DNA from: Rhodanobacter sp.
GTDB lineage: Bacteria > Pseudomonadota > Gammaproteobacteria > Xanthomonadales > Rhodanobacteraceae
Assembly: GCA_030148505.1 (NCBI GenBank)
Contig: JASBTI010000012.1
Location: forward strand, 62,001 to 126,000
DNA: 64,000 nt
Direction of reading: 5' to 3'
Positions 237 to 39,417 of this stretch are shown here, one piece after another. Position 1 is the stretch's first letter, and the number at the start of each line of letters is the position of its first letter. Under the pieces are notes generated by a model. The model saw only the letters and a program-made list of their open reading frames with translations, made no database searches and was not told the origin of the DNA. Both the position numbers and the translations under genes were made by a program.

Positions 237-811
237 TTTCAAGATCAAGAGCGTTTCGTCCTCCTGCGGAGGGCGAGTGGCTTTTCTCTGCGTGGCCAGA
301 GAAAAGCCACCAAAAGAGAGGCCACCCCGCTTCCGCGCTTTCCGGGCGTTGCCCGGAAAGTCCGCGCCGGGGGTTACGGGGTTTGTCGTCAGTCCATCCA
401 TGGACTGACGCCAAACTGGTTCGCATCCATGCGAACCACCCTGCGGGCTATTCCTCCACCCCGTCGCCGCTGCAGAGGGGAGGAAACGTCAAAAGCAGCG
501 TGCCGCTGCGCGCCACAGCTTGAGCCCATCGCGTCAGCCGTCGCCGTTGCCGTAGATCTTGATCTTCACCCCCTTGTAAGGTGGTGAGTCGTGGACCACA
601 GGCCCGCAGGGGCGTCGGCATGGATGCCGGCGCCTTTTCGCCAGGACAGGAGTCCTGTCGAAAAGCCCGGCCGCGGCTCACGGACTTGTCGGGCGTAGCC
701 CGGCAAGCGCCGAGGAGGGTGCCCCTCTCTCTGGTTACTCTCTCTCGGGCAAGCGAGAGAGAGTGACTCGCCCTCCGCAGGAGGGTGAAACGCCTTTGAT
801 TTCAAGATCCG
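237..811. repeat. Long hairpin-cluster repeat (family C), two halves in inverted orientation
   Basis: The 770-base gap between the fumarase gene and lysC-lysA is filled by repeats. The left end (from 237) and the reverse complement of the right end (to about 811) share a TTTCAAGATC-like terminus followed by CTCCTGCGGAGGGCGAGT. Inside are several strong hairpins: 14-bp perfect arms at 277-290/297-310, 10-bp arms at 387-396/401-410, and 10-bp arms at 417-426/429-438. Matching hairpins lie in the right half, around 667-760. A related single unit occurs at 10003-10345. No convincing coding region is present. Function unknown; it could terminate transcription or stabilise mRNA 3' ends. Confidence 0.75.
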
Positions 812-987
812 GTAGCCACGGCATTCGAAGGCCAGGGCGAATCAGCTGCGACAGATTGGGTTGCAGCACTACATCAAGGCTTGGAAGTCTAAACGTCCAA
901 ATACAAAATTTCACGAAACCATTGCATTTGCATTGCCGCAGCGCAACACTGTCGGGCCCCTTTTTTCCTTCTAACCATCGGATAGCC

Positions 988-3603
988 GTGAGCCTGCCAA
1001 CCCCTGAGCCGCTGCCCGCCACCGCCCCTTGGGTGGTGATGAAGTTCGGCGGCACCAGCGTCGCTACTCTGCCACGCTGGCAGAACATCCTTGAACTGGT
1101 CGCCAGCCGTCGTGCCGAGGGCGCGCGCGTGGTAGTGGTGGTTTCCGCGCTTTCCGGTATCACTGATGCACTCAAACAACTGTGCAAGCTCGGCGAACGC
1201 GGCCAGCGTATCGAGGCGGCCCGGGAAATCAGCCAGCGCCATTACGCCTTGCTGGAGCACATGCAATTGGCGATGCCGGAGACGCTCGGCGCGCGCCTGA
1301 GTGACTTGGCGAAGCTCGCTGACGAGGGTACGGCGACGCTGGGTGAACTGGCGTGGCAGGCGCAGGTGCAGGCCCACGGCGAGCTGATGTCCAGCGCGCT
1401 GGGCGCGGCCTTTCTCAGCCACAGCGGCTTGCCCACACAGTGGCTGGATGCGCGCGATTGCCTGGCCGCGGTCGCGCTGCCGAACCAGAACGAGCGTACC
1501 AAGCTGCTCTCGGCGATGGTCGAAACCACCCCCGACCCGGCACTCAAAGCCCGGTTGGCGGCGCTGGGCGAGGTATTCATCACCCAAGGTTTCATCGCCC
1601 GCGAGACGGCTGGTCGCACCGTGCTGCTCGGTCGCGGTGGTTCGGATACCTCGGCCTCGTATTTCGGCGCGCTGCTGAAGGCGCAGCGGGTGGAAATCTG
1701 GACCGACGTGGCCGGCATGTTCACCGCCAATCCGCGCCAGGTGCCGACCGCGCGGCTGCTGCAGAAGCTGGACTACGAAGAGGCGCAGGAGATTGCCTCG
1801 ACCGGGGCGAAGGTGTTGCACCCGCGCTGCCTGTCGCCGTTGCGCGAGCCGCGCGTGCCGCTGCTGATCAAGGACACCAACCGGCCCGAGCTGGAGGGCA
1901 CGGTGATCGGCCCGGAGGTGCGTGAGCACGCGCCCAGCGTCAAGGCGATCAGCGCACGCAAGGGCATCACCCTGGTGTCGATGGAATCGGTTGGCATGTG
2001 GCAGCAGGTCGGCTTCCTCGCCGACGTGTTCGATCAGTTCAAGCAACACGGGCTATCGGTGGACCTGATCGGTTCGGCTGAGACCAATGTCACGGTGTCG
2101 CTCGACCCCACCCAGAACCTGCTCGATTCCGACGCGGTGGCGGCGCTGGCCAGCGACCTTGCCAAGGTCTGCCGGGTCAAGGTGATCGCACCATGCGCCG
2201 CCATCACCCTGGTCGGCCGCGGCATGCGCTCGATGCTGCATACGTTGTCTGCTGTGCTGGCGGAATTCGGCCAGTTGCGCGTGCACATGATTTCGCAGTC
2301 GTCCAACAACCTGAATCTCACCTTCGTGGTGGACGAGAGCGTGGTCGACGATTTGCTGCCGCATCTGCACGAGTTGCTGATCAGCGCCGGCGCGTTGCGC
2401 ACCGACGACAGCGAGCTGTTCGGACCCAGCTGGCAGGCCTTGTATGGCGGTGGCGACATGCCGTTGCCGGCTGCCGCCTGGTGGCGCAACACATGTCGTC
2501 AGCAGCTGCTGGACATCGGCGCCGAGGCCACGCCGCGCTATGTCTACCACCTGCCGACCGTGCGCCGGCAGGCGCGTGCGCTGAAGACCCTGGCCGCGGT
2601 GGACCGGCTGCACTATGCGGTGAAGGCAAACACCCACCCGGCGATCCTCGGCGCGCTGGCTGACGAGGGCTTTGGCTTCGAGTGCGTGTCGCCCGGTGAG
2701 CTGAAGGCGGTGATGGCCGCAGTGCCCGAGAGCGCGCCGCTGCTGTTCACGCCGAACTTCGCGCCGCGCGAGGATTACGCCTGGGCACTGACCACCCGCG
2801 CCACCGTGTCGCTCGACTCGCTGTATCCGCTGGAACACTGGGGTGAACTGTTTCGTGCCCGCGAAATCGTGCTGCGCGTGGATCTTGGTCGCGGTCTTGG
2901 ACATCACGAAAAGGTGCGCACCGGGGGCAGCGGCAGCAAGTTCGGCCTGCCGGTCGACCAGCTCGATGCTTTTCTGCGCTTGGCCGACGCCCACGGCGTG
3001 ATCGTGCGCGGCCTGCATGCGCACCTGGGCTCGGGCATCCTCGATGGCGCGCACTGGGGCGAGGTCTATGCCCAGCTGGCCAGTCTGGCCGAGCGCATCG
3101 GCAGCGTCAGCTTCATCGACATCGGCGGCGGTCTCGGCGTGCCGTCGCATCCCGGCGAGGCGGCGCTGGATGTGGCCGAGCTGGATCGGGTCCTGCGCGA
3201 GGTGAAGGCGGCGTATCCGCACTACCAGCTATGGATGGAACCGGGCCGCTACCTGGTCGCCGACGCCGGTGTGCTGCTGGCGCGGGTCACCCAGCAGAAA
3301 GGCAAGGGCGCATTGCGCTACCTGGGCATCGATACCGGCATGAACAGCCTGATCCGCCCCGCGCTGTACGACGCCTGGCACGAGATCGTCAACCTGACCC
3401 GACTGGATGAGCCGGCCTCCGGCCTGTTCCAGATCGTCGGCCCGATCTGCGAGAGCGGCGACGTGCTTGGCACCGATCGCCGCCTGCCCGAGGCGCTCGA
3501 AGGCGACGTAATGCTGGTGGCCCAGGCCGGCGCCTACGGCAAAGTGATGTCCAGCCCGTACAACCTGCGCGACGAAGCCGAGGAAATCGTCCTCGACGAC
3601 TGA
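988..3603 (+). CDS. lysC-lysA: Bifunctional aspartate kinase / diaminopimelate decarboxylase
   Basis: An 871-residue fusion that carries out the first and last steps of the DAP-lysine pathway. The N-terminal half is an aspartokinase (KFGGTSV at residues 19-25, GRGGSDTSA in the middle, then regulatory ACT domains to about 460). The C-terminal half is a PLP-dependent diaminopimelate decarboxylase: PLP lysine in YAVKANTHP at residue 546, then HAHLGSG, GGGLGVP, EPGRYLVADAG and CESGD. The reading frame is open upstream to 763, but that part translates repeat DNA, so the GTG at 988 is chosen, 30 bases before the kinase motif region. The ACT domains suggest feedback inhibition, probably by lysine; this is inference. 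The fusion is characteristic of Xanthomonadales. Confidence 0.96.
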   Translation: MSLPTPEPLPATAPWVVMKFGGTSVATLPRWQNILELVASRRAEGARVVVVVSALSGITDALKQLCKLGERGQRIEAAREISQRHYALLEHMQLAMPETLGARLSDLAKLADEGTATLGELAWQAQVQAHGELMSSALGAAFLSHSGLPTQWLDARDCLAAVALPNQNERTKLLSAMVETTPDPALKARLAALGEVFITQGFIARETAGRTVLLGRGGSDTSASYFGALLKAQRVEIWTDVAGMFTANPRQVPTARLLQKLDYEEAQEIASTGAKVLHPRCLSPLREPRVPLLIKDTNRPELEGTVIGPEVREHAPSVKAISARKGITLVSMESVGMWQQVGFLADVFDQFKQHGLSVDLIGSAETNVTVSLDPTQNLLDSDAVAALASDLAKVCRVKVIAPCAAITLVGRGMRSMLHTLSAVLAEFGQLRVHMISQSSNNLNLTFVVDESVVDDLLPHLHELLISAGALRTDDSELFGPSWQALYGGGDMPLPAAAWWRNTCRQQLLDIGAEATPRYVYHLPTVRRQARALKTLAAVDRLHYAVKANTHPAILGALADEGFGFECVSPGELKAVMAAVPESAPLLFTPNFAPREDYAWALTTRATVSLDSLYPLEHWGELFRAREIVLRVDLGRGLGHHEKVRTGGSGSKFGLPVDQLDAFLRLADAHGVIVRGLHAHLGSGILDGAHWGEVYAQLASLAERIGSVSFIDIGGGLGVPSHPGEAALDVAELDRVLREVKAAYPHYQLWMEPGRYLVADAGVLLARVTQQKGKGALRYLGIDTGMNSLIRPALYDAWHEIVNLTRLDEPASGLFQIVGPICESGDVLGTDRRLPEALEGDVMLVAQAGAYGKVMSSPYNLRDEAEEIVLDD

Positions 3604-3608
3604 CCGAC

Positions 3609-3664
3609 CCCCTCTCCCCCGCGGGCGGCAGTCCCCTTTTTGGGAGCGAGGGTCGGGGTGAGGG
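3609..3664 (+). repeat. Degenerate family A repeat after lysC-lysA
   Basis: Starts six bases after the lysC-lysA stop. It begins CCTCTCCCCC and ends GGTCGGGGTGAGGG, the two ends of family A, but its middle differs from the other copies. It leads directly into a tandem duplication. A position just behind a stop codon is typical of REP-like elements. Confidence 0.6.
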
Positions 3665-3865
3665 CGATTCAATGGAGCGGATCGCGCGGGGCGTCTCTCT
3701 TGCCTCCTCTCCCCTTTGGGGAGACGACTGCATGGATGCAGGAGGTAGAGCAATGCAGGGAGCGATTGCCGAGGATTGAGGTGAGGGCGATTCAATGGAG
3801 CAGGTCGCGCGGAGCGTCTCTCTTGCCTCCTCTCCCCTCTGGGGAGAGGATTGAGGTGAGGGGCC
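3658..3865 (+). repeat. Tandem pair of family A repeats, long then short form
   Basis: Two successive units start GTGAGGGCGATTCAATGGAGC at 3658 and 3781. The first unit is 123 bp and contains the long family A form (3706-3786). The second is 75 bp to the next GTGAGGGG (3856) and contains the short form (3829-3865). The difference is exactly 48 bp: the long form carries an extra block after GGGGAGA that starts CGACTGCATGGATGCAG. That block contains a palindrome (CTGCAT..ATGCAG) and the inverted pair GCAAT/ATTGC. The short form is a hairpin, CCTCTCCCC/GGGGAGAGG, with a TTGAGGTGAGGGG tail. The right end of the pair is the left flank of the DUF559 gene. Confidence 0.85.
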
Positions 3866-4280
3866 ACGCCGCCACAAACCAGCAACAAAGGAGCTTTTCA
3901 AGGATGAAACGCCAAAACGTGGACCGAGCGCGCGGACTGCGCCAAACCATGACCGATGCCGAACGGCATCTCTGGTATCGACTGCGCAACCGGCAACTGT
4001 GCGGTCACAAATTCCGCCGCCAGCACGAAATCGACCACTACATCGTCGATTTCGTCTGTATCGACAGCATGCTGATCGTCGAGCTCGATGGCGGCCAGCA
4101 CGCCGATCAGCTGGATTACGACGAGCGCCGCACGCAACATTTGCAAGCTGGGGGATACCGCGTGCTGCGTTTCTGGAACAATGACGTATTGATGAACATC
4201 GAGAGCGTGCTTGAGGTGATCCTGGTGGCTGTGGCCAGCACGGCCCCTCACCCCAACCCTCTCCCCGCAGGGGAGAGGGG
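3829..4280. mobile_element. Candidate repeat-bounded unit carrying the DUF559 gene
   Basis: Short family A repeats at 3829-3865 (forward) and 4242-4280 (reverse) form near-perfect terminal inverted repeats of about 37-39 bp around the nuclease gene; the GAGGTGAGGGGCC end of each faces the gene. The arrangement recalls REP pairs around RAYT transposase genes, but here the enclosed gene encodes a DUF559 nuclease. No target-site duplication could be recognised. Mobility is inference. Confidence 0.45.
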
Positions 4281-4308
4281 GCAGTTCGCGCCGGAGAGTG
4301 AAGAGTGA
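3904..4308 (+). CDS. DUF559 (Vsr-like, PD-(D/E)XK fold) endonuclease-domain protein
   Basis: A 134-residue protein of the DUF559 family, small proteins with a very-short-patch-repair-endonuclease-like fold. Conserved features are LWYRLRNRQ, GHKFRRQ, YIVDF, IVELDGGQH and GYRVLRFWNNDVL; likely catalytic residues are D49, E60 and D62. A good ribosome binding site (AAAGGAG, 3887-3893) decides the start at 3904. The domain ends at about residue 115. The tail (PHPNPLPAGERG) is translated from a family A repeat at 4242-4280, inverted relative to the copy just upstream at 3829-3865, so the gene is framed by repeats. Its stop overlaps the murL GTG. Nuclease activity and target are not known for this family; any role in moving the repeats is conjecture. 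Confidence 0.85.
   Translation: MKRQNVDRARGLRQTMTDAERHLWYRLRNRQLCGHKFRRQHEIDHYIVDFVCIDSMLIVELDGGQHADQLDYDERRTQHLQAGGYRVLRFWNNDVLMNIESVLEVILVAVASTAPHPNPLPAGERGQFAPESEE
4242..4280 (-). repeat. Family A short repeat inside the 3' end of the DUF559 gene
   Basis: The sequence runs GGCCCCTCACCCCAACCC then CTCTCCCC-GCA-GGGGAGAG, the reverse complement of the 3829-3865 copy. It is translated as the last part of the nuclease reading frame. Its hairpin lies about 25 bases before the murL start and could affect murL translation. Confidence 0.85.
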
Positions 4309-5750
4309 CTACAACGATGCAACCGCGCCTGACCCAGGTGTTCCGCTTCACCCACTGCCGCTATGCCGATGGCCTGGCCGAGCTCGGCTATGCGTTCGAC
4401 GATGGCGAGGAGCTGATCGAGAAGATCCGCTTTCCGCAGGCGCCGGCGATTCCTGCCGCGCGGCGTGCGGCGTTCGATGCGGCGCTGAAGCTGTTGCACC
4501 TGGTCGCGGGTGTCAGCTACTACAAGGCCGGGGTGCCGCCGAAGATTGCGTTGGACGATGGTCCACTGGGCGACGCCACTGCCGACCTGCTCGATGCGTT
4601 GTATCTGCACGGGCTGGCCGAATTTGCCTACCGCAACAAGCTCGACCTGCGCAGCCGCATTGCCTTCCCGCGCTTGTCTCCTTCTCCCCTGCGGGGAGAC
4701 GACTGCATGGATGCAGGAGGTAGAGCAATGCCGGGAGCTATTGCCGAAGGTCGGGATCAGGGGGTGGCCTCGCCACAAGCCAGCGGTCGAAGCGCCGCAC
4801 CCAAGCTCAACCTGCCCAAACGCACCTTGGTCCCAATCGGTGGCGGCAAGGACTCGCTGGTGGCGGTCGAGGCGATCAAGTCGATCGGCGGCGAAGCGAC
4901 TGCGGTATGGGTCGGCAACTCCCCGCTGATCGCCGCTTGCGCCGAGCAGACCGGCCTGCCGAGGCTGAACATCCAGCGCGACCTGGCGCCGGGGCTGTTC
5001 GAGTTGAACCGGCAAGGGGCCTGGAATGGCCATATCCCGGTCACCGCGGTGAACTCGGCGATTCTCGCCGTGGCCGCGATCCTGTATGGCTACGACTCGA
5101 TTGCGTTTGCCAACGAGCGCTCGGCCTCGGTGGCGACATTGGAATACGAGGGGCAGCAGATCAATCATCAGTGGAGCAAGGGCTTTGCGTTCGAGACGAT
5201 GCTGGGGGACTGGCTGCACCGCAATGTTGCCGCCGATCTCGACTATTGCTCGCTGCTGCGGCCGTATTCAGAACTGGCGATTACTCGCGCCTTCGCCCGG
5301 CTGACGCCTTACTTCGACAGCTTTTCCAGCTGCAACCGTAACTTCCGCTTGCTCGGGCCGAAGCCGGCCGACCGCTGGTGCGGGCAGTGCCCGAAATGCC
5401 ACTTCGTGTTTCTGGCGCTGGCGCCCTTCCTGCCCAAGCCACGGCTGCTGGCGATCTTCGGCCGCAACCTGCTCGACGATGAAACCCAGACCGCCGGCTT
5501 CGACGCGCTGCTGGAATATCAGGACCACAAGCCGTTCGAATGCGTGGGCGAGGGCGCCGAGGCGCGCGCAGCCATGTATGCGCTGAGCCAGCGGCCGGAG
5601 TGGGCCGAGGATGCGCTGGTGGCGCGCTTCCGCAGCGAGATCCTGCCCCTGCTCAAGGTCGGCGAGCTGGCGTTGGAGCCGTGGTTGGAGCCGTCGCTGG
5701 AACACCGCGTGCCGTCGCGTCTGCAGTCCGCGCTGGCAATGATCGGCTGA
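4305..5750 (+). CDS. murL: UDP-MurNAc-L-Ala-L-Glu epimerase (MurL)
   Basis: Recognised as MurL, which in Xanthomonas converts the terminal L-Glu of UDP-MurNAc-L-Ala-L-Glu to D-Glu in an ATP-dependent reaction, replacing the MurI route. Visible features are a PP-loop-like GGGKDS at residues 179-184, suiting carboxylate adenylation, NERSAS in the middle, and the cysteine cluster CGQCPKCHFVF near the C-terminus. Residues about 123-155 are translated from an inserted family A repeat (4680-4764), making the protein 481 residues without breaking the frame. The GTG at 4305 overlaps the preceding stop (GTGA); ATG 4317 is an alternative start. The partner ligase murD2 follows. Confidence 0.88.
   Translation: MTTTMQPRLTQVFRFTHCRYADGLAELGYAFDDGEELIEKIRFPQAPAIPAARRAAFDAALKLLHLVAGVSYYKAGVPPKIALDDGPLGDATADLLDALYLHGLAEFAYRNKLDLRSRIAFPRLSPSPLRGDDCMDAGGRAMPGAIAEGRDQGVASPQASGRSAAPKLNLPKRTLVPIGGGKDSLVAVEAIKSIGGEATAVWVGNSPLIAACAEQTGLPRLNIQRDLAPGLFELNRQGAWNGHIPVTAVNSAILAVAAILYGYDSIAFANERSASVATLEYEGQQINHQWSKGFAFETMLGDWLHRNVAADLDYCSLLRPYSELAITRAFARLTPYFDSFSSCNRNFRLLGPKPADRWCGQCPKCHFVFLALAPFLPKPRLLAIFGRNLLDDETQTAGFDALLEYQDHKPFECVGEGAEARAAMYALSQRPEWAEDALVARFRSEILPLLKVGELALEPWLEPSLEHRVPSRLQSALAMIG
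4680..4764 (+). repeat. Family A long repeat inserted in murL
   Basis: An 85-bp long-form copy: CCTTCTCCCC-TGC-GGGGAGA hairpin, the 48-bp block with CTGCATGGATGCAG, then a GTCGGGATCAGGGG tail. It is read in frame as LSPSPLRGDDCMDAGG and following residues, between the N-terminal region and the PP-loop of MurL. Confidence 0.88.
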
Positions 5751-5783: not shown

Positions 5784-5858
5784 GTAGGAGCGCACCCTAT
5801 GCGCGATGCTGTTTGCGCACGGGGGCATCAAGGCATCGGGCACAGGGTGCGCTCCTAC
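5784..5858. repeat. Family B palindromic repeat between murL and murD2
   Basis: A 75-bp element with arms GTAGGAGCGCACCCT and AGGGTGCGCTCCTAC at its two ends and GCGCGATGC-like inner arms. It starts 34 bases after the murL stop. The same family occurs inside hrpA (36019-36094) and as a half copy at 9961-9990. As RNA it would form a strong hairpin between the two mur genes and could separate their expression. Confidence 0.9.
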
Positions 5859-5919: not shown

Positions 5920-7278
5920 ATGCGCATAGCCGAACTCGGCGGCAAGCGTGTCGCGATCTGGGGCTTCGGTCGCGAGGGGCGCGCCGCGCTTGCCGCTCTG
6001 CGCGAGCATTATCCGGCGCAGCTGTTCACCCTGTTTTGCGCCGCCGCCGAGATCGACGCCGCTCGCGCGTTCGATCCCTCGCTGGCGGTGATCGGTAGCG
6101 AACCGGATGCCGCCACGCTGGCTGGTTTCGATGTGGTGGTGAAATCACCCGGCATTTCCGCCTACAAACCGGAGCTGCTGGCTGCCCAGGCGCGAGGTAC
6201 CACGGTCTGCTCCGGCACTGCGTTGTGGTTTGCGGAAAACCCCGACGCCCAGGTGATCGCGGTCACCGGCACCAAGGGCAAGAGCACTACCAGCGCCATG
6301 CTCGCCCATCTGGCGCGCAGTCTCGGTGTGCGTACCGCGCTGGCGGGCAATATCGGCCTGCCGCTGCTGGAATTGCGCAATCAGCACGCCGACCTGTGGG
6401 TGATCGAGCTGTCCAGTTTCCAGACCGCCGAAGCCGGTGCGCTGGTGTTGGGCGTGGTCACCAGCCTGTACGAGGAACACCTCGACTGGCACGGTTCGCG
6501 CGAGCGGTACGTAGCCGACAAGTTGCGTCTGGCCGAGGTGTCGCGGCAAGTTCTGGTCAATGCGTTGCAGCCGCACTTGCTCGAGCGTACGCAGGCGCAT
6601 CCGCACCGGCTGCTGTTCGGCCAGCCGCAGGGCTGGCACGTCGCCGACGGTTTCATTCGGCGCGGCAGCCAAAACGTATTTCCGCTCGGCCAATTGGCGG
6701 CGCCGGGCTTGCACAACGCCCTCAACGCCTGCGCTGCACTGGCTGCGTTGGCCGCCGTAGACGTGGATGCGCTGGCGGCGGCCCCGGCACTGGGCAGCTT
6801 TCGCCCGCTGCCGCATCGGCTGCAACCGCTGGGCGAGCGCGCCGGTTTCCACTGGGTCAACGATTCCATCAGTACGACGCCGCAAGCCACACTGGCGGCG
6901 TTGCAAAGCCTGCCGGGTCGCGTAGTCACCGTACTGGTCGGCGGCCATGACCGCGGGCTGGACTGGACGCCGTTCGTCGAGGCGATGCGGGCAGCACCGC
7001 CGCACGCGATCATCTGCATGGGCAGCAACGGCGGGCGCATTGAAGCCGCGCTGCGTGCTGGCGATGTGTCCCGTGCGGTGATGCGGGTCGACGATCTCGC
7101 CAGCGCCGTGAGCGAGGCCAGGGCGTCCACGCCGCAGGGCGGGGTGATCCTGCTGTCGCCCGGTGCGCCGAGCTTCGATCAGTTCAAGGATTATGCGCAG
7201 CGCGGGCGGCGGTTTGCGGAGTTGGCGGGGTTTGATGGCGCGGCCATCGCCGGTATCGATGGGCTGGGGGTCGGTTGA
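5920..7278 (+). CDS. murD2: UDP-MurNAc-L-alanine--L-glutamate ligase (MurD2)
   Basis: A Mur ligase that adds L-Glu (rather than D-Glu) to UDP-MurNAc-L-Ala, supplying the substrate of MurL. The protein is 452 residues from ATG 5920 and has the Mur ligase order: N-terminal Rossmann segment (GKRVAIWGFGREG), ATP loop VTGTKGKSTT, LAGNIGLPLL, ELSSFQ, EHLDWHG, and the C-terminal HRLQ/NDSISTTP region ending in LLSPGAPSFDQF. The frame is open from 5806, but that part translates repeat B; ATG 5896 is a second possible start. The assignment to MurD2 rather than MurD rests largely on the neighbouring murL. A decayed copy of its 3' end lies at 9632-9873. Confidence 0.88.
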   Translation: MRIAELGGKRVAIWGFGREGRAALAALREHYPAQLFTLFCAAAEIDAARAFDPSLAVIGSEPDAATLAGFDVVVKSPGISAYKPELLAAQARGTTVCSGTALWFAENPDAQVIAVTGTKGKSTTSAMLAHLARSLGVRTALAGNIGLPLLELRNQHADLWVIELSSFQTAEAGALVLGVVTSLYEEHLDWHGSRERYVADKLRLAEVSRQVLVNALQPHLLERTQAHPHRLLFGQPQGWHVADGFIRRGSQNVFPLGQLAAPGLHNALNACAALAALAAVDVDALAAAPALGSFRPLPHRLQPLGERAGFHWVNDSISTTPQATLAALQSLPGRVVTVLVGGHDRGLDWTPFVEAMRAAPPHAIICMGSNGGRIEAALRAGDVSRAVMRVDDLASAVSEARASTPQGGVILLSPGAPSFDQFKDYAQRGRRFAELAGFDGAAIAGIDGLGVG

Positions 7279-9631: not shown

Positions 9632-9873
9632 GACGAGGCGATACGCGCGATACCGCCGCAAGCGGTCGTCTGCATGGGCAGCAACGGTGGCTGCATCGCC
9701 GCCGTTGCTGAAGCGAAGGCACGGGCACCTGCCGCGAGCGGGATCCCGCTGTCGCCCGGTGCCCCGAGCTCTGATTAGTTCAAGGATTATGCGGAGCGGG
9801 GGCGGCGGTTTGCGGGGTTGGTGGAGTTTGATGGCGCGGCCATCGCCGGTATCGATGGGCTGGGGTCGGTTGA
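9632..9873 (+). pseudogene. Truncated second copy of the murD2 3' end
   Basis: Homologous to 6976-7278. Recognisable in frame are AIRAIPPQAVVCMGSNGG and SGIPLSPGAPSSD, matching MRAAPPHAIICMGSNGG and GVILLSPGAPSFD of MurD2. The copy lacks the rest of the ligase, has lost about 60-70 bases in the middle, and has an in-frame TAG (9776-9778) where murD2 has CAG. Beyond that stop, up to 9873, the bases remain very close to the intact gene. Similarity extends past the former stop to about 9935. It cannot encode a functional ligase. Confidence 0.85.
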
Positions 9874-9960: not shown

Positions 9961-9990
9961 GTAGGAGCGCACCCTGTGCGCGATGCCCTT
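9961..9990 (+). repeat. Half copy of family B repeat
   Basis: GTAGGAGCGCACCCTGTGCG followed by CGATGC is one arm of the family B palindrome; the second arm is missing and the sequence runs into a family C unit. Confidence 0.75.
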
Positions 9991-35214: not shown

Positions 35215-38200
35215 ATGAACGACAAGAATGCCCCCCCACCTCCCTCGGTCGATGCGCAGCTGCGTGCGTTGCGGCGGGAGCTCGATGCGGTGTCCAGTCG
35301 CGACTTCGGTCGCCTGCTGGGCCGGTGGCGTGGGCTGTCGCGGCGGCCCGATGAAGGCAGGCTGGCGGCGCTGCTGGCCGACATCGAGCGGTCGGCGGCG
35401 AAGCGCGCGGCACGCAAGGCGGCGAAACCGCCGATCCGGCTGGACGAGTCGCTGCCGATCAGCGCGCGGGGCGAGGAGATCGTCAATCTGATCCAGCAGC
35501 ACCAGGTGGTGGTGATTGCCGGCGAGACCGGCTCGGGCAAGACCACGCAATTGCCGAAATTGTGTCTCGCCGCAGGCCGTGGCGAAGCAGGCATGATCGG
35601 TTGTACCCAGCCGCGTCGCTTGGCGGCGCGCTCGGTGGCCCGACGGGTGGCCGAGGAGCTGGGCAGCCCGGTGGGCGAGATCGTCGGCTTCCAGGTGCGT
35701 TTCACCGACCAGGTCTCCGAGCGCAGCCTGATCAAGTTCATGACCGACGGTATCCTGCTGGCCGAGACCCAGGGCGATCCATGGCTCAGCGCGTACGACA
35801 CGATCATCATCGACGAGGCGCACGAACGCAGCCTCAATATCGATTTTCTGCTCGGCTACTTGAAGACGCTGGCGCTGAAGCGGCCGCAGCTGAAGATCAT
35901 CGTCACCTCGGCCACGATCGATACCGCGCGCTTTGCCGAGCATTTCGACGGCGCACCGGTGGTTTCGGTGGAAGGCCGTGCGCATCCGGTGGAATTGCGC
36001 TGGCGGCCAGTGGATGCCGTAGGAGCGCACCCTGTGCGCGATGCTCTTTCTGGTAGGACGGCGAAGAGCGATCGCGCACAGGGTGCGCTCCTACCGGGCC
36101 GGCGCTCGAATCTGCAGCAGGGCAGTGCCGAGCACATTGCCGCGGTGCTGGATGAAATCAGCCACGATGATCCGCGTGGTGATGTGCTGATCTTCCTGCC
36201 CGGCGAGCGGGAGATTCGCGATGCGCACCTGCTGTTGTCACGCCGGCAATACCGCGAAACCGAGATCATGCCGTTGTATGCGCGGCTTTCGGCGGGCGAT
36301 CAGGACCGCGTGTTCAAGCCGGGCATCAGGCGCCGCGTGGTGCTGGCCACCAATGTCGCCGAAACCTCGCTCACCGTGCCGCGCATCCGCTATGTGATCG
36401 ACACCGGCACGGCGCGGGTGAAGCGCTACAGCCAGCGCAGCCAGCTTGAGCGACTGCATGTCGAGCCGATCTCGCAGGCGGCGGCGGACCAACGCAAGGG
36501 GCGTTGCGGGCGCGTCGGCCCCGGTGTCTGCTATCGCCTGTACGACGAAACCGATTTCGCCGGACGGGCCGCCTTCACCGATCCCGAGCTGCTACGTTCG
36601 TCGCTGGCCAATGTAATCCTGCGCATGCTGGCGTTGCAGTTGGGCGAGGTGGAGGCGTTTCCGTTTCTGGATGCACCCGATCCGCGCGTGGTGGCGGATG
36701 GCTATCGTCGCCTTGCCGAGATTTCAGCGATCGACGAAGCGCGCAAGCTCACCGCCATCGGACGTACCGTGGCGCGCCTGCCGATCGACGTGCAACTGGC
36801 ACGGATGCTGGTCGAGGCCGAGCAGCGACAAAGTCTGCGCGAGGTGTTGACCATCGTCAGTTTTCTCAGCGTGCAGGACCCGCGCGAGCGTCCGCCCGAT
36901 GCGCGTCAGCAGGCCGACGCGGCGCACGCGCAGTTTGCCGACCCGACCTCCGACTTTGTCGGCGTGCTGAAGCTGTGGCGCGCCTACCACGAGGCCCATG
37001 AGGAGTTGACCCAGTCGAGGCTGCGTGACTGGTGCTCACGGCATTTTCTCAGTTTCATGCGCCTGCGCGAATGGCGCGAATTGCATCGGCAGTTGCTGCT
37101 GGTGGTACATGAGCTAGGCTGGAAGCTGGAGGCCACCGACTCCGCCCGAAAACCCATGCGGGGAGAAGGGGCGGTCGTGCCCAAAAACCCACGCGCCGGC
37201 TCTGCCGCGGTTCGGAAGAACAAGAGCGGGAAGGTTTCCCGCGAGCACCCGCCCCTCACCCCAACCCTCGGCAATCGCTCCCTGCATTGCTCTACCTCCC
37301 GCATCCATGCGGTCGTCTCCCCGCAGGGGAGAGGGGGCGAACGCGAAGAGCGTGGTGTGGATCAACAGGGAGCGATGGACCGCCTTTTCGAGGCGGTCCA
37401 TCGCTCCCTGTTGGCCGGTCTGCCGACCCAGGTAGGGCGCAAGGACGATAAGGGTGTCTACCAGAGCACGCGCGAGCGAAAATTTCAGGTGTTTCCGGGC
37501 TCGGCGTTGTCGAAGCTGCCGCCGAAGTGGGTCTTCTCGGCGCAGATTCTCGATATCGGCGGGCGCGTGTGGGGGATGATGAACGCGCGGGTGGAGCCGC
37601 TGTGGATCGAGCAGCAGGCGGCGCATCTGTTGCGCGCAAGTTGCCGCGATGCGCATTGGTCGAGCAAACGCGGTGCGGTGGTGGCCTACGAGCAGGTTAG
37701 TCTGTTCGGGCTGGTGCTGGTGGAGAAACGCGCGGTGACGTTCCAGGTGCAGGACCCACCGCTGGCTCACGCGATTTTCCTGCGCGAAGCGCTGATCCGT
37801 GGCGACATCGATACCCGTGCCGATTTCGTGCGCGCCAACCAGCGCGTGCTGGAGGAGGCACGTGGCATCGAGGCGAAACAGCGGCGCGAAGGCCTGATTC
37901 GCCATGAGGACGAGTTGGTGGATTTCCTCGCCGGCAAGTTGCCGGAGGAGATCGCCGGTACCCGTGCGCTGGATGCCTGGTATCGCAAGGCACGTCCCGC
38001 CGAGCGGGCGGCGCTGCACTGGTCGCTGGATGACGTGATGGGAGGCGGCGTGGGCCTGGACGCCAAGGCTTTTCCGGCCATGTTGGAACTCGGTGGTCAG
38101 CGCTATCGGCTGGAATACCGTTTCCTGCCGGGAGACGAGGCCGATGGCGTGACCGTGCATCTTCCGCTGGCGATGTTGAACGCCTTGCCCCCAGCGCGGT

Positions 38201-39417
38201 GTGAATGGCTGGTGCCCGGTCTGCTGGGGGAGAAGGTCGCCGAGCTGATCCGGGGTCTGCCCAAGTCGTTGCGCCGGAATTTCGTGCCGGCACCGGACTT
38301 TGCGCATGCCTTCGTCGAAGCCGAAGCGCCACGTGACGAGCCTCTTGCGAAAGCTCTGGCGGAGTTTCTCAAGCGTGCAACGGGCGTGGATATCGGTCTC
38401 GCTGAATTCGCCGCAGTCGAACTGCCTGCGCATTTCCGGATGCGCTATCGCCTGCACGAAGGCGACGATGCGCAAGGCAAGACCCTGGCCAGTGGCCGCG
38501 ACTTGCCGGCGTTGCGGGCACAGTGGGAGGGCAAGGCGCGGGAAGCCTTCTCGCGCAAGACCGATGTGGAGCTGAACCGTGAGAATGTCACCGGTTGGGA
38601 TTTCGAGGAAATTCCGTCGCAGGTGGGCGCCGACGGCGGCATGGTGGCGTTTCCGGCACTGGTTGATCTGGGCGAGACGGTGGCCCTGCGGGTGTTCGAG
38701 CGCCATGACGAAGCGCTCGATGCGCATCGCCAGGGGGTGTTGCGATTGTTGCGCAATGCCCTCGCCAGTGATGCCAAGCAGGCACGTCGTCGATTGCCGG
38801 TCAGCAATCCGCTGGCGCTGAAATATGCGCCGCTCGGTGGCGTAGAGGGCTTGCGCGACGACTTGCTCGAAGGCGGTTTCGGCGATCTGCTCGAACGGCA
38901 TGAGCTGGACGTGCGCACGGCTGGAACCTTCGAGGCACTGCGTGCGCAATGTGCGCGCGAACTGTTTGCCGCTGGCATCGAGCGCCTGAAATTGGCCGAG
39001 CCGATCATCGACGCGCAGGCGGAGTTGAAACCCTGGTTGCAACCGCCGCTGCTGGGTTTTGCCAAGGCCAGCTACGACGATCTGCACGAGCAGCTGGAGG
39101 CCTTGCTGGTGCCGGGATTCCTGCGCGACCTGCCGGCGTCGCGGCTGGCACACTACCCCCGCTACCTGAAAGCGATGCGGCTGCGCGCCGAGCGCCTGCG
39201 CCAGGATCCGTCCAAGGATCAGCAACGCATGCTGCAGGTGCTGCCGTACTGGCGGGCGTATCTGCAGCGCCGCGCCGCGGGCGCCGACGCGGAAGCGCTC
39301 GCCGAGCTGCGCTGGCTGATCGAGGAGTGGCGCGTCTCGCTGTTCGCGCAGGAGCTGAAGACCGCCGAGCCGGTGTCGGCTAAGCGGCTGGCACGGGCGC
39401 GGTCGGCGCTGTCATGA
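35215..39417 (+). CDS. hrpA: ATP-dependent RNA helicase HrpA, with two in-frame repeat insertions
   Basis: 1400 residues against about 1300 in E. coli. Walker A GETGSGKTTQ and DEAHERS mark the DEAH helicase core; SATIDTARF, RRVVLATNVAETSLT and DQRKGRCGRVGPG follow, then winged-helix/OB and the large DUF3418 C-terminal region. HrpA unwinds RNA and helps rescue stalled ribosomes. Residues about 269-294 come from a family B repeat (36019-36094), between VELRWRPV and the conserved HIAAVLDEI region. Residues about 641-726 come from a second insert with a family A repeat (37252-37336), between ELGWKLE and EAVHRSLLAGL. The frame stays open throughout, so the gene is not called broken. ATG 35215 is the first start. 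Confidence 0.93.
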   Translation: MNDKNAPPPPSVDAQLRALRRELDAVSSRDFGRLLGRWRGLSRRPDEGRLAALLADIERSAAKRAARKAAKPPIRLDESLPISARGEEIVNLIQQHQVVVIAGETGSGKTTQLPKLCLAAGRGEAGMIGCTQPRRLAARSVARRVAEELGSPVGEIVGFQVRFTDQVSERSLIKFMTDGILLAETQGDPWLSAYDTIIIDEAHERSLNIDFLLGYLKTLALKRPQLKIIVTSATIDTARFAEHFDGAPVVSVEGRAHPVELRWRPVDAVGAHPVRDALSGRTAKSDRAQGALLPGRRSNLQQGSAEHIAAVLDEISHDDPRGDVLIFLPGEREIRDAHLLLSRRQYRETEIMPLYARLSAGDQDRVFKPGIRRRVVLATNVAETSLTVPRIRYVIDTGTARVKRYSQRSQLERLHVEPISQAAADQRKGRCGRVGPGVCYRLYDETDFAGRAAFTDPELLRSSLANVILRMLALQLGEVEAFPFLDAPDPRVVADGYRRLAEISAIDEARKLTAIGRTVARLPIDVQLARMLVEAEQRQSLREVLTIVSFLSVQDPRERPPDARQQADAAHAQFADPTSDFVGVLKLWRAYHEAHEELTQSRLRDWCSRHFLSFMRLREWRELHRQLLLVVHELGWKLEATDSARKPMRGEGAVVPKNPRAGSAAVRKNKSGKVSREHPPLTPTLGNRSLHCSTSRIHAVVSPQGRGGEREERGVDQQGAMDRLFEAVHRSLLAGLPTQVGRKDDKGVYQSTRERKFQVFPGSALSKLPPKWVFSAQILDIGGRVWGMMNARVEPLWIEQQAAHLLRASCRDAHWSSKRGAVVAYEQVSLFGLVLVEKRAVTFQVQDPPLAHAIFLREALIRGDIDTRADFVRANQRVLEEARGIEAKQRREGLIRHEDELVDFLAGKLPEEIAGTRALDAWYRKARPAERAALHWSLDDVMGGGVGLDAKAFPAMLELGGQRYRLEYRFLPGDEADGVTVHLPLAMLNALPPARCEWLVPGLLGEKVAELIRGLPKSLRRNFVPAPDFAHAFVEAEAPRDEPLAKALAEFLKRATGVDIGLAEFAAVELPAHFRMRYRLHEGDDAQGKTLASGRDLPALRAQWEGKAREAFSRKTDVELNRENVTGWDFEEIPSQVGADGGMVAFPALVDLGETVALRVFERHDEALDAHRQGVLRLLRNALASDAKQARRRLPVSNPLALKYAPLGGVEGLRDDLLEGGFGDLLERHELDVRTAGTFEALRAQCARELFAAGIERLKLAEPIIDAQAELKPWLQPPLLGFAKASYDDLHEQLEALLVPGFLRDLPASRLAHYPRYLKAMRLRAERLRQDPSKDQQRMLQVLPYWRAYLQRRAAGADAEALAELRWLIEEWRVSLFAQELKTAEPVSAKRLARARSALS
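36019..36094. repeat. Family B palindromic repeat inside hrpA
   Basis: A 76-bp element with arms GTAGGAGCGCACCCTGTGCG and its near-complement ending GGGTGCGCTCCTAC. It closely resembles the copy at 5784-5858. It is read in frame within the first helicase half of HrpA (as AHPVRDALSGRTAKSDRAQG). Confidence 0.92.
37252..37336 (-). repeat. Family A long repeat inside hrpA (reverse orientation)
   Basis: The reverse complement matches the long form at 3706-3786 and 4680-4764: CTCTCCCC-TGC-GGGGAGA, the 48-bp block with GCATGGATGC, then GGGTTGGGGTGAGGGG. It is part of a larger insert of about 255 bases (37136-37390) not expected from HrpA family conservation. Confidence 0.9.
37363..37413. repeat. 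Perfect 23-bp inverted repeat in hrpA
   Basis: Arms 37363-37385 and 37391-37413 are exact reverse complements around a TTTCG loop. The right arm encodes native HrpA residues (EAVHRSLL); the left arm is its inverted duplicate at the edge of the inserted DNA. The mRNA would form a very stable hairpin within the coding region. Confidence 0.93.

Follow-up and report, generated by a model that had tools for sequence, protein, structure and literature searches.

DUF559 nuclease genes framed by inverted BoxC/PIT-type repeats: a candidate mobilising unit found in many bacterial phyla

The window studied here is a stretch of 64,000 nucleotides from a contig of Rhodanobacter sp. (JASBTI010000012.1). 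At 3904-4308 on the + strand, with its stop codon at 4306-4308, lies a DUF559 (PF04480) gene for a protein of 134 aa, which is predicted by Pfam, AlphaFold2 and Foldseek to be a PD-(D/E)XK/Vsr-like nuclease. The gene is framed by two short-form copies of a BoxC/PIT-type element, here called family A. The left copy (3829-3862, +) is composed of the hairpin CCTCTCCCC-TCT-GGGGAGAGG and a tail directed inward to the gene, and an inner segment of 41 nt (3863-3903, +) leads from the repeat tail to the ATG at 3904. The right copy (4245-4278, -) is inverted with its tail inward as well, and falls within the 3' end of the DUF559 frame, where it doubles as the coding sequence of the ..HPNPLPAGERG.. C-terminal tail of the protein. 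A preliminary description of this DNA had reported inverted short-form copies on both sides, with the right one forming the gene's own 3' coding end, and both observations were confirmed. Alignment of the left flank with the reverse complement of the right flank, a test which is free of any assumed repeat sequence, scored 59 at this locus, compared with a 99th percentile of 30.75 for 926 random positions drawn from the 20-kb surroundings of DUF559 genes in other genomes of the family.

Further copies that the preliminary description had placed behind lysC-lysA and in the ORFs it called murL and hrpA proved to be real. Directly behind the lysC-lysA ORF a degenerate copy (3608-3664, +) was recognised by eye from its tail GGTCGGGGTGAGGG and a broken hairpin, while long-form copies are situated upstream of the DUF559 unit (3706-3787, +; hairpin, 48-nt insert, tail), inside the next ORF, the putative murL (4680-4763, +), for which the Pfam search gave no match, and inside the 1400-aa ORF 35215-39417, the putative hrpA (37252-37335, -). 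The long form equals the short form plus 48 extra nt between hairpin and tail, and these 48 nt (CTGCATGGATGCAGGAGGTAGAGCAATGC..) sit at the same position in all three long copies. As the relative G600 has the plain short form at the murL site, the long form resembles a nested insertion, or else a second loop that was extended. An alignment of murL from 30 genus members revealed the hairpin insertion in 9, another short insertion in 4, and none in 17. The genome from which the window was taken has one DUF559 gene and eight exact CTCTCCCCNNNGGGGAGA matches per strand.

Several other repeats were observed in the window. An 84-nt direct repeat left of the DUF559 gene (3647-3730 and 3770-3853, spacing 123 nt) links successive repeat copies, as if from tandem duplication, and a perfect 23-nt inverted repeat with a 5-nt loop (37363-37413) is located 28 nt past the 37252-37335 copy in the same ORF. 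The 946-aa ORF at 763-3603 joins an amino acid kinase with ACT domain to a PLP decarboxylase, and is hence a lysC-lysA fusion. A 124-nt direct repeat with 92% identity (7146-7269 and 9742-9865), adjoined by a second pair of 74 nt that is similarly spaced, suggests that the gene ending near 7278 was partially duplicated. RAYT-type REP repeats (GTAGGAGCGCACC..) form a separate family at 5784-5858, 9961-9983 and 36019-36094, some of them as inverted pairs, and the GTAGGAGC repeats of the window do not belong to family A.

Family A copies are built from a hairpin whose 5' arm is rich in pyrimidines and whose 3' arm is rich in purines; the purine tail next to it reads like the 3' arm in mirror order, often with T in place of A. 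In the right copy of the window, 9 of 10 tail positions are identical to the 3' arm with one A-to-T exchange, and in the left copy 8 of 9, again with one A-to-T exchange; pyrimidine 5' arm, purine 3' arm and mirroring purine tail are also what characterises BoxC/PIT elements. The copies, which were searched for with a hairpin pattern of 3-nt loop, begin with CCTC, and no GTAG-type tetranucleotide stands before their palindrome. Judged by its sequence, the tail is a candidate third strand of a potential intrastrand triplex; triplex formation in vitro was reported for the E. coli element (PMC4666352). Across 258 innermost hairpins, the best mirror match averaged 6.88 of 8 positions on the inward side and 5.59 on the outward side. 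When tails were swapped between loci the mean was 6.38 (maximum 6.48 in 200 swaps), and with the own tail shuffled 5.65. The excess of the own tail over swapped tails is small because many of the repeats are related, but it is still outside all swaps.

The profile match of the window protein to PF04480 (E 2.4e-43, 146.9 bits) is far over the curated cut-off of 20.6, and the only other Pfam match was a weak one to PF18741. A RAYT as mobiliser of family A found no support, as the enclosed gene is not a Y1 enzyme but matches PF04480 and, weakly, PF18741 only. The AlphaFold2 model (pLDDT 85.8, pTM 0.79) retrieved N. gonorrhoeae NGO0050 (3hrl, E 1.1e-8) as the best Foldseek match, the catalytic domain of the homing endonuclease I-Bth0305I (3r3p, E 1e-4) as the second, and weakly Vsr itself (1vsr, E 0.056), in line with the Vsr-like fold that had been proposed for the enclosed protein. 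The Vsr profile PF03852 gave no match at E up to 0.001. Residues invariant among 18 sequences include E20, D49, E60, D62, Q65, and H66, and these would make up a PD-(D/E)XK-type site, as expected. YcjD of the same Pfam family was assigned to the PD-(D/E)XK superfamily near Vsr as early as 2005 (PMC1189080).

A profile search detected PF04480 in 125 of the 197 genomes of the family and in 145 of the 398 of the phylum. We sampled 92 loci in 54 family genomes, the best 80 matches among named genomes of many phyla (broad set), and 29 loci of the phylum sample; all were DUF559 hits with the best scores or the highest similarity, so that the figures apply to this portion of the family, and weak or fused DUF559 proteins may be without repeats. 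L112 (runs of N), L087 (poly-C), and L138 (no flank) were dropped before the locus counts, as were the duplicates L084, L097, L108, and L137, and eight loci with flanks shorter than 250 nt were left out (L040, L047, L064, L067, L109, L111, L115, and L145). The detector required the hairpin-plus-mirror-tail build within 250 nt of the gene. Elements were found on at least one side of the gene at 180 of the 186 deduplicated loci and on both sides at 145 (77/88 in the family, 54/69 in the broad and 14/29 in the phylum sample), and 134 loci carry an inward pair. In contrast, among 623 other ORFs of at least 120 aa from the same loci, 44 had an element on at least one side and 1 on both, and among 30 Vsr loci the numbers were 1 and 0. 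DUF559 genes are therefore flanked on both sides far more often than other genes (145/186 vs 1/623; Fisher p 6.5e-121, ignoring relatedness), as the preliminary description would have it, and the arrangement was directly observed in many phyla.

Element density amounts to 6.57/kb within 250 nt of the gene versus 0.134/kb beyond 1 kb in Xanthomonadaceae, and to 5.97/kb versus 0.070/kb in the broad set. The sequence-free flank alignment exceeded the random 99th percentile at 44/50 and 66/79 loci, two of the 66 being the artefacts L112 and L087. With flanks paired between different loci, the 99th percentile rose to 61, as the repeats of different loci are alike, so that the flank alignment shows the kind of repeat rather than strict pairing. 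An outward pair without an inward pair occurs at 9 of the 186 loci (L102, L116, L119, L127, L147, L161, L166, L173, and L174), and three of L116, L119, L127, L147, and L161 are labelled Gastranaerophilales or Cyanobacteria. In the phylum sample, fourteen loci carry the element on one side only, which for 9 is the 3' side, and the detector found no element at six loci (L085, L103, L125, L131, L157, and L175).

Single loci deserve mention as well. L125 (Legionella anisa) is without a PIT-type element and has a long inverted flank match of other sequence (alignment score 252). At L293 (G029:C3:274800-278200), three tandem DUF559 genes follow each other with a spacing of exactly 501 nt, all with one repeat type. 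In the Klebsiella and P. aeruginosa plasmid records L224 and L226, fragments or remnants resembling DUF559 occur at the sites cysP|Dyp-type peroxidase and gtrS|ABC transporter, and the remnant in Klebsiella has PIT-like sequence on its 3' side.

The repeats also covary with the nuclease. Among the 92 family loci, repeat similarity is correlated with protein identity at a Spearman coefficient of 0.42, which was reached by 0 of 500 Mantel permutations. A paralogue test was possible for 62 of these 92 loci, after exclusion of paralogues with at least 85% identity and of loci for which there was no closer foreign nuclease. In 61 of the 62, the repeat resembles the one beside the nearest foreign nuclease more than the one beside a paralogue in the same genome, although these rows are not independent because orthologues recur. 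The repeat sequence thus follows the nuclease lineage and not the host genome, by 61 to 1.

Copy number follows the cognate nuclease type. Type-A hairpins reach a median of 53 in the 35 genomes with an A-flanked nuclease, compared with 3 in the 19 genomes with other fetched nucleases and 0 in the 72 without DUF559; the corresponding medians for type B are 15 (17 genomes with a B-type nuclease), 0 (37 with others), and 0 (72 DUF559-free), and the highest type-B count in a DUF559-free genome is 1. The nuclease type was known for 54 of the 125 positive genomes, and the type-A regular expression is loose, such that G105 counts as A-flanked via a related variant. In G072 and G140 there are two exact type-A hairpins each, one on either side of the DUF559 gene. 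The expectation that repeat number would depend on the presence of the nuclease was borne out in the family, where any type-A hairpin was seen in 7 of 72 negative genomes (maximum 22) against 75 of 125 positive ones; a partial exception is E. coli O157, of which four rows had no ycjD match yet 13 repeat places each.

Pairs of the repeat are also found with no gene between them. Fifteen stretches were fetched, most of them for two hairpins about 100 nt apart, and contained eleven close pairs with 52-98 nt in between, all eleven in the tails-inward orientation. Motifs such as GGGCGGGTGCTCGCG recur in their inner ends and in those of DUF559 units, and for 13 of the 22 ends the resemblance to the latter exceeds the 95th percentile obtained with random 27-mers (p 1.6e-5), so that the paired form with related inner ends is a direct observation. 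Three inward pairs (L010, L012, and L020) are present in the window's own genome. For E. coli K-12, five close pairs can be taken from a published table, four with tails inward and one outward, each made of one type A and one type B element (PMC4666352, Table 1).

At the lysA|murL site, a script detected DUF559 between the two genes in 9 of 30 genus members, and one more copy, in G607, is degraded. A short junction without DUF559 is present in seven (G039, G105, G164, G173, G195, G601, and G603), G609 holds a remnant, and 12 of the 30 could not be scored. Inspection of flanks by eye found DUF559 beside murL-like or lysA-like sequence in other genera too, which is why we consider the site an old one with subsequent losses; vertical inheritance with loss accords with the data. 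The empty sites that the preliminary description proposed to look for do exist at lysA|murL, but loss accounts for them no less well than insertion does.

The DUF559 gene of E. coli is ycjD, located between sapF and fabI, and the repeat is BoxC/TMECO, which we counted by sequences of the kind in PMC4666352 (Table 1), e.g. CCCTCGCCCCTCTGGGGAGAGGGTTAGGGTGAGGGG. The ycjD query was covered to at least 80% in about 3,365 of 5,426 genomes, and the repeat was found in 5,357 of them, so it persists without ycjD. In a spread sample of 60 rows, from which one plasmid-sized row was left out, the median number of repeat places was 17 (9-23, n=38) in ycjD-positive and 3 (1-13, n=21) in ycjD-negative rows, a contrast that follows a few old lineages and is confounded by phylogeny; in some lineages eefRABCD is described as replacing ycjD (PMC12817139). 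No element was found on the sapF side of ycjD, which may therefore be a one-sided, fixed copy.

Repeat sites differ within the species, as is directly seen from two ycjD-positive strains with 13 and 20 repeat matches: the flanks of 19 repeat sites in one of them were compared and match a site of the other at 2 only, while the ycjD site, also common to both, was not among the 19. E. coli repeat sites were described as hypervariable before (PMC4666352, section 19). At three sites, the strains lacking the repeat have, for the most part, another palindromic sequence in its place, or little at all. By eye, we take this alternative sequence to be REP-like. No clean insertion with target-site duplication is visible at these three sites, where the alternative sequence occupies the place; with other sequence present, replacement rather than clean insertion is possible. 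HH45 carries runs of C, G, and A in place of the repeat at site 1, probably a sequencing error.

Hardly any doubt is left that the DUF559 gene and its repeat form one co-evolving unit. The DUF559 nuclease is the prime suspect for moving the repeat, and we consider it fairly probable that it mobilises BoxC/PIT elements. The unit would read, in order, hairpin, inward purine tail, nuclease gene, inward purine tail, and hairpin. The Vsr-like PD-(D/E)XK nuclease would recognise the hairpin/triplex ends of its own lineage and nick or cut there, and the ends, alone or as MITE-like gene-free inward pairs, would then be copied or moved to other sites, probably by host repair or replication. The solo and paired repeats of the genome would be the non-autonomous products. 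Binding, cutting, movement, the route taken, and the folded triplex as substrate are what we infer from these patterns, while the one-sided loci, the nine outward pairs, and the copies in some nuclease-free genomes count against mobilisation.

In its widest form, towards which we lean by a little, the proposal would place DUF559 nucleases, as the autonomous part, at the centre of a class of minimal mobile elements that extends across bacteria, i.e. units of about 0.5 kb with one Vsr/homing-type endonuclease gene and two intrastrand-triplex ends, whose MITEs would be the gene-free end pairs, whose offspring would include E. coli BoxC and relatives in many phyla, and whose substrate would be the folded triplex end instead of a linear sequence.

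Elements that hug the gene on either side could also serve its own regulation or insulation. The hairpins would then be terminators or operators of the nuclease gene, which the protein binds or cuts for self-control, and the scattered copies fossils or local controls; lineage-specific covariation would likewise be expected of an operator and its protein. This seems unlikely to us, given that it leaves unexplained both the tens to nearly 200 hairpins per genome that track the nuclease type and the gene-free inward pairs with similar inner ends, and that the E. coli element is reported to be without promoter or terminator activity (PMC4666352, citing earlier work). Considering the Vsr-like fold, a role in host repair may be envisaged as well, with DUF559 as a Vsr-type mismatch nuclease, the repeats as its fragile or preferred substrate, and recombination driven by breaks placing repeats beside the gene. 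The hypervariable E. coli sites would suit such a role, and so would Caulobacter VsrA, a DUF559-carrying protein that triggers the DNA damage response and was proposed to be a mismatch-repair enzyme (PMC12907096). True Vsr genes are nevertheless without such flanks (0/30 on both sides), and paralogues in the same genome keep different, lineage-specific repeats, which makes host repair quite improbable as the explanation.

That an unrelated enzyme moves the hairpins, with DUF559 as a passenger or as an anti-repeat defence, would agree with the repeat-bearing genomes that have no DUF559. Yet the repeat variants stay specific to their nuclease lineages even within one genome (61:1), and the roughly 0.5-kb unit has no second gene inside, leaving this a very faint prospect. 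The likelihood that the flanks are merely chance or a selection artefact of GC-rich hairpins is negligible. Short GC-rich hairpins are indeed common, and our loci were drawn from the best-scoring DUF559 hits, but the same-locus ORFs (1/623) and Vsr genes (0/30) show hardly any two-sided flanking and the mirror tail fits its own hairpin better than swapped tails do; the random-position, other-ORF, and Vsr controls rule chance out. We thus retain mobilisation by the DUF559 nuclease as the preferred reading.

In E. coli, BoxC/PIT elements have been on record since the 1990s, and thousands of genomes are known to contain them. In a 2015 survey the mechanism of their instability was called unclear, with no mobility genes reported near them (PMC4666352). 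A candidate gene can now be named, and its presence in E. coli K-12 as ycjD renders the question testable in a laboratory strain. If true, the proposal would add mobile elements of a class that relies on a PD-(D/E)XK nuclease and triplex-forming ends, explain a very widespread bacterial repeat, and provide a Pfam family without known function with one. The BoxC/PIT repeat and the DUF559 domain were each known already, and it is the system combining them that is new; as far as our searches show, this applies to the paired mini-units, the covariation with nuclease lineage, and the connection with DUF559/ycjD, and no paper linking DUF559 to BoxC/PIT-type repeats was found in the open-licence literature. 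To our knowledge, no mobile-element class uses a Vsr-type nuclease with such ends, and as we can name none that does, we take the system as new in kind, while a cautious reader could regard it as a variant of the REP/RAYT kind.

The elements around DUF559 have the same build as BoxC/PIT/TMECO repeats and intrastrand triplex motifs, which were described as repeats alone, with no transposase or integrase at the sites covered by that account (PMC4666352). The window protein belongs to the same Pfam family as YcjD-type PD-(D/E)XK nucleases and Caulobacter VsrA, with a score far over the cut-off, whereas DUF559 as presented in these reports is a predicted Vsr relative or mismatch-repair enzyme with no repeat linked to it (PMC12907096, PMC1189080). 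The catalytic domain of I-Bth0305I (3r3p) comes from a selfish endonuclease of Vsr-like fold; DUF559 units differ from it in carrying their own hairpin ends and gene-free derivatives, and neither an intron nor a conserved target gene was seen with them. As with MITEs, gene-free inverted pairs share their ends with the gene-bearing unit, but the DUF559 unit encodes no DDE-type or other transposase, and no target-site duplication was seen at the three E. coli sites. The closest layout is that of REP/RAYT systems (REPtron, BIME, REPIN), in which palindromic elements are inverted around a single nuclease gene, occur throughout the genome both as single copies and as inverted pairs, and evolve together with the gene (PMC3686654, PMC2817692), and the analogy that the preliminary description drew with them holds for the inverted cognate repeats around a gene with which they co-evolve. 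The parts are different: RAYT is a Y1 tyrosine transposase and REP a GTAG-headed palindrome, whereas the DUF559 enzyme is a PD-(D/E)XK/Vsr-like nuclease and its element a hairpin with a mirror tail. If mobilisation holds true, DUF559 would be the cognate mobilising nuclease of BoxC/PIT, as RAYT is for REP, with unrelated parts.
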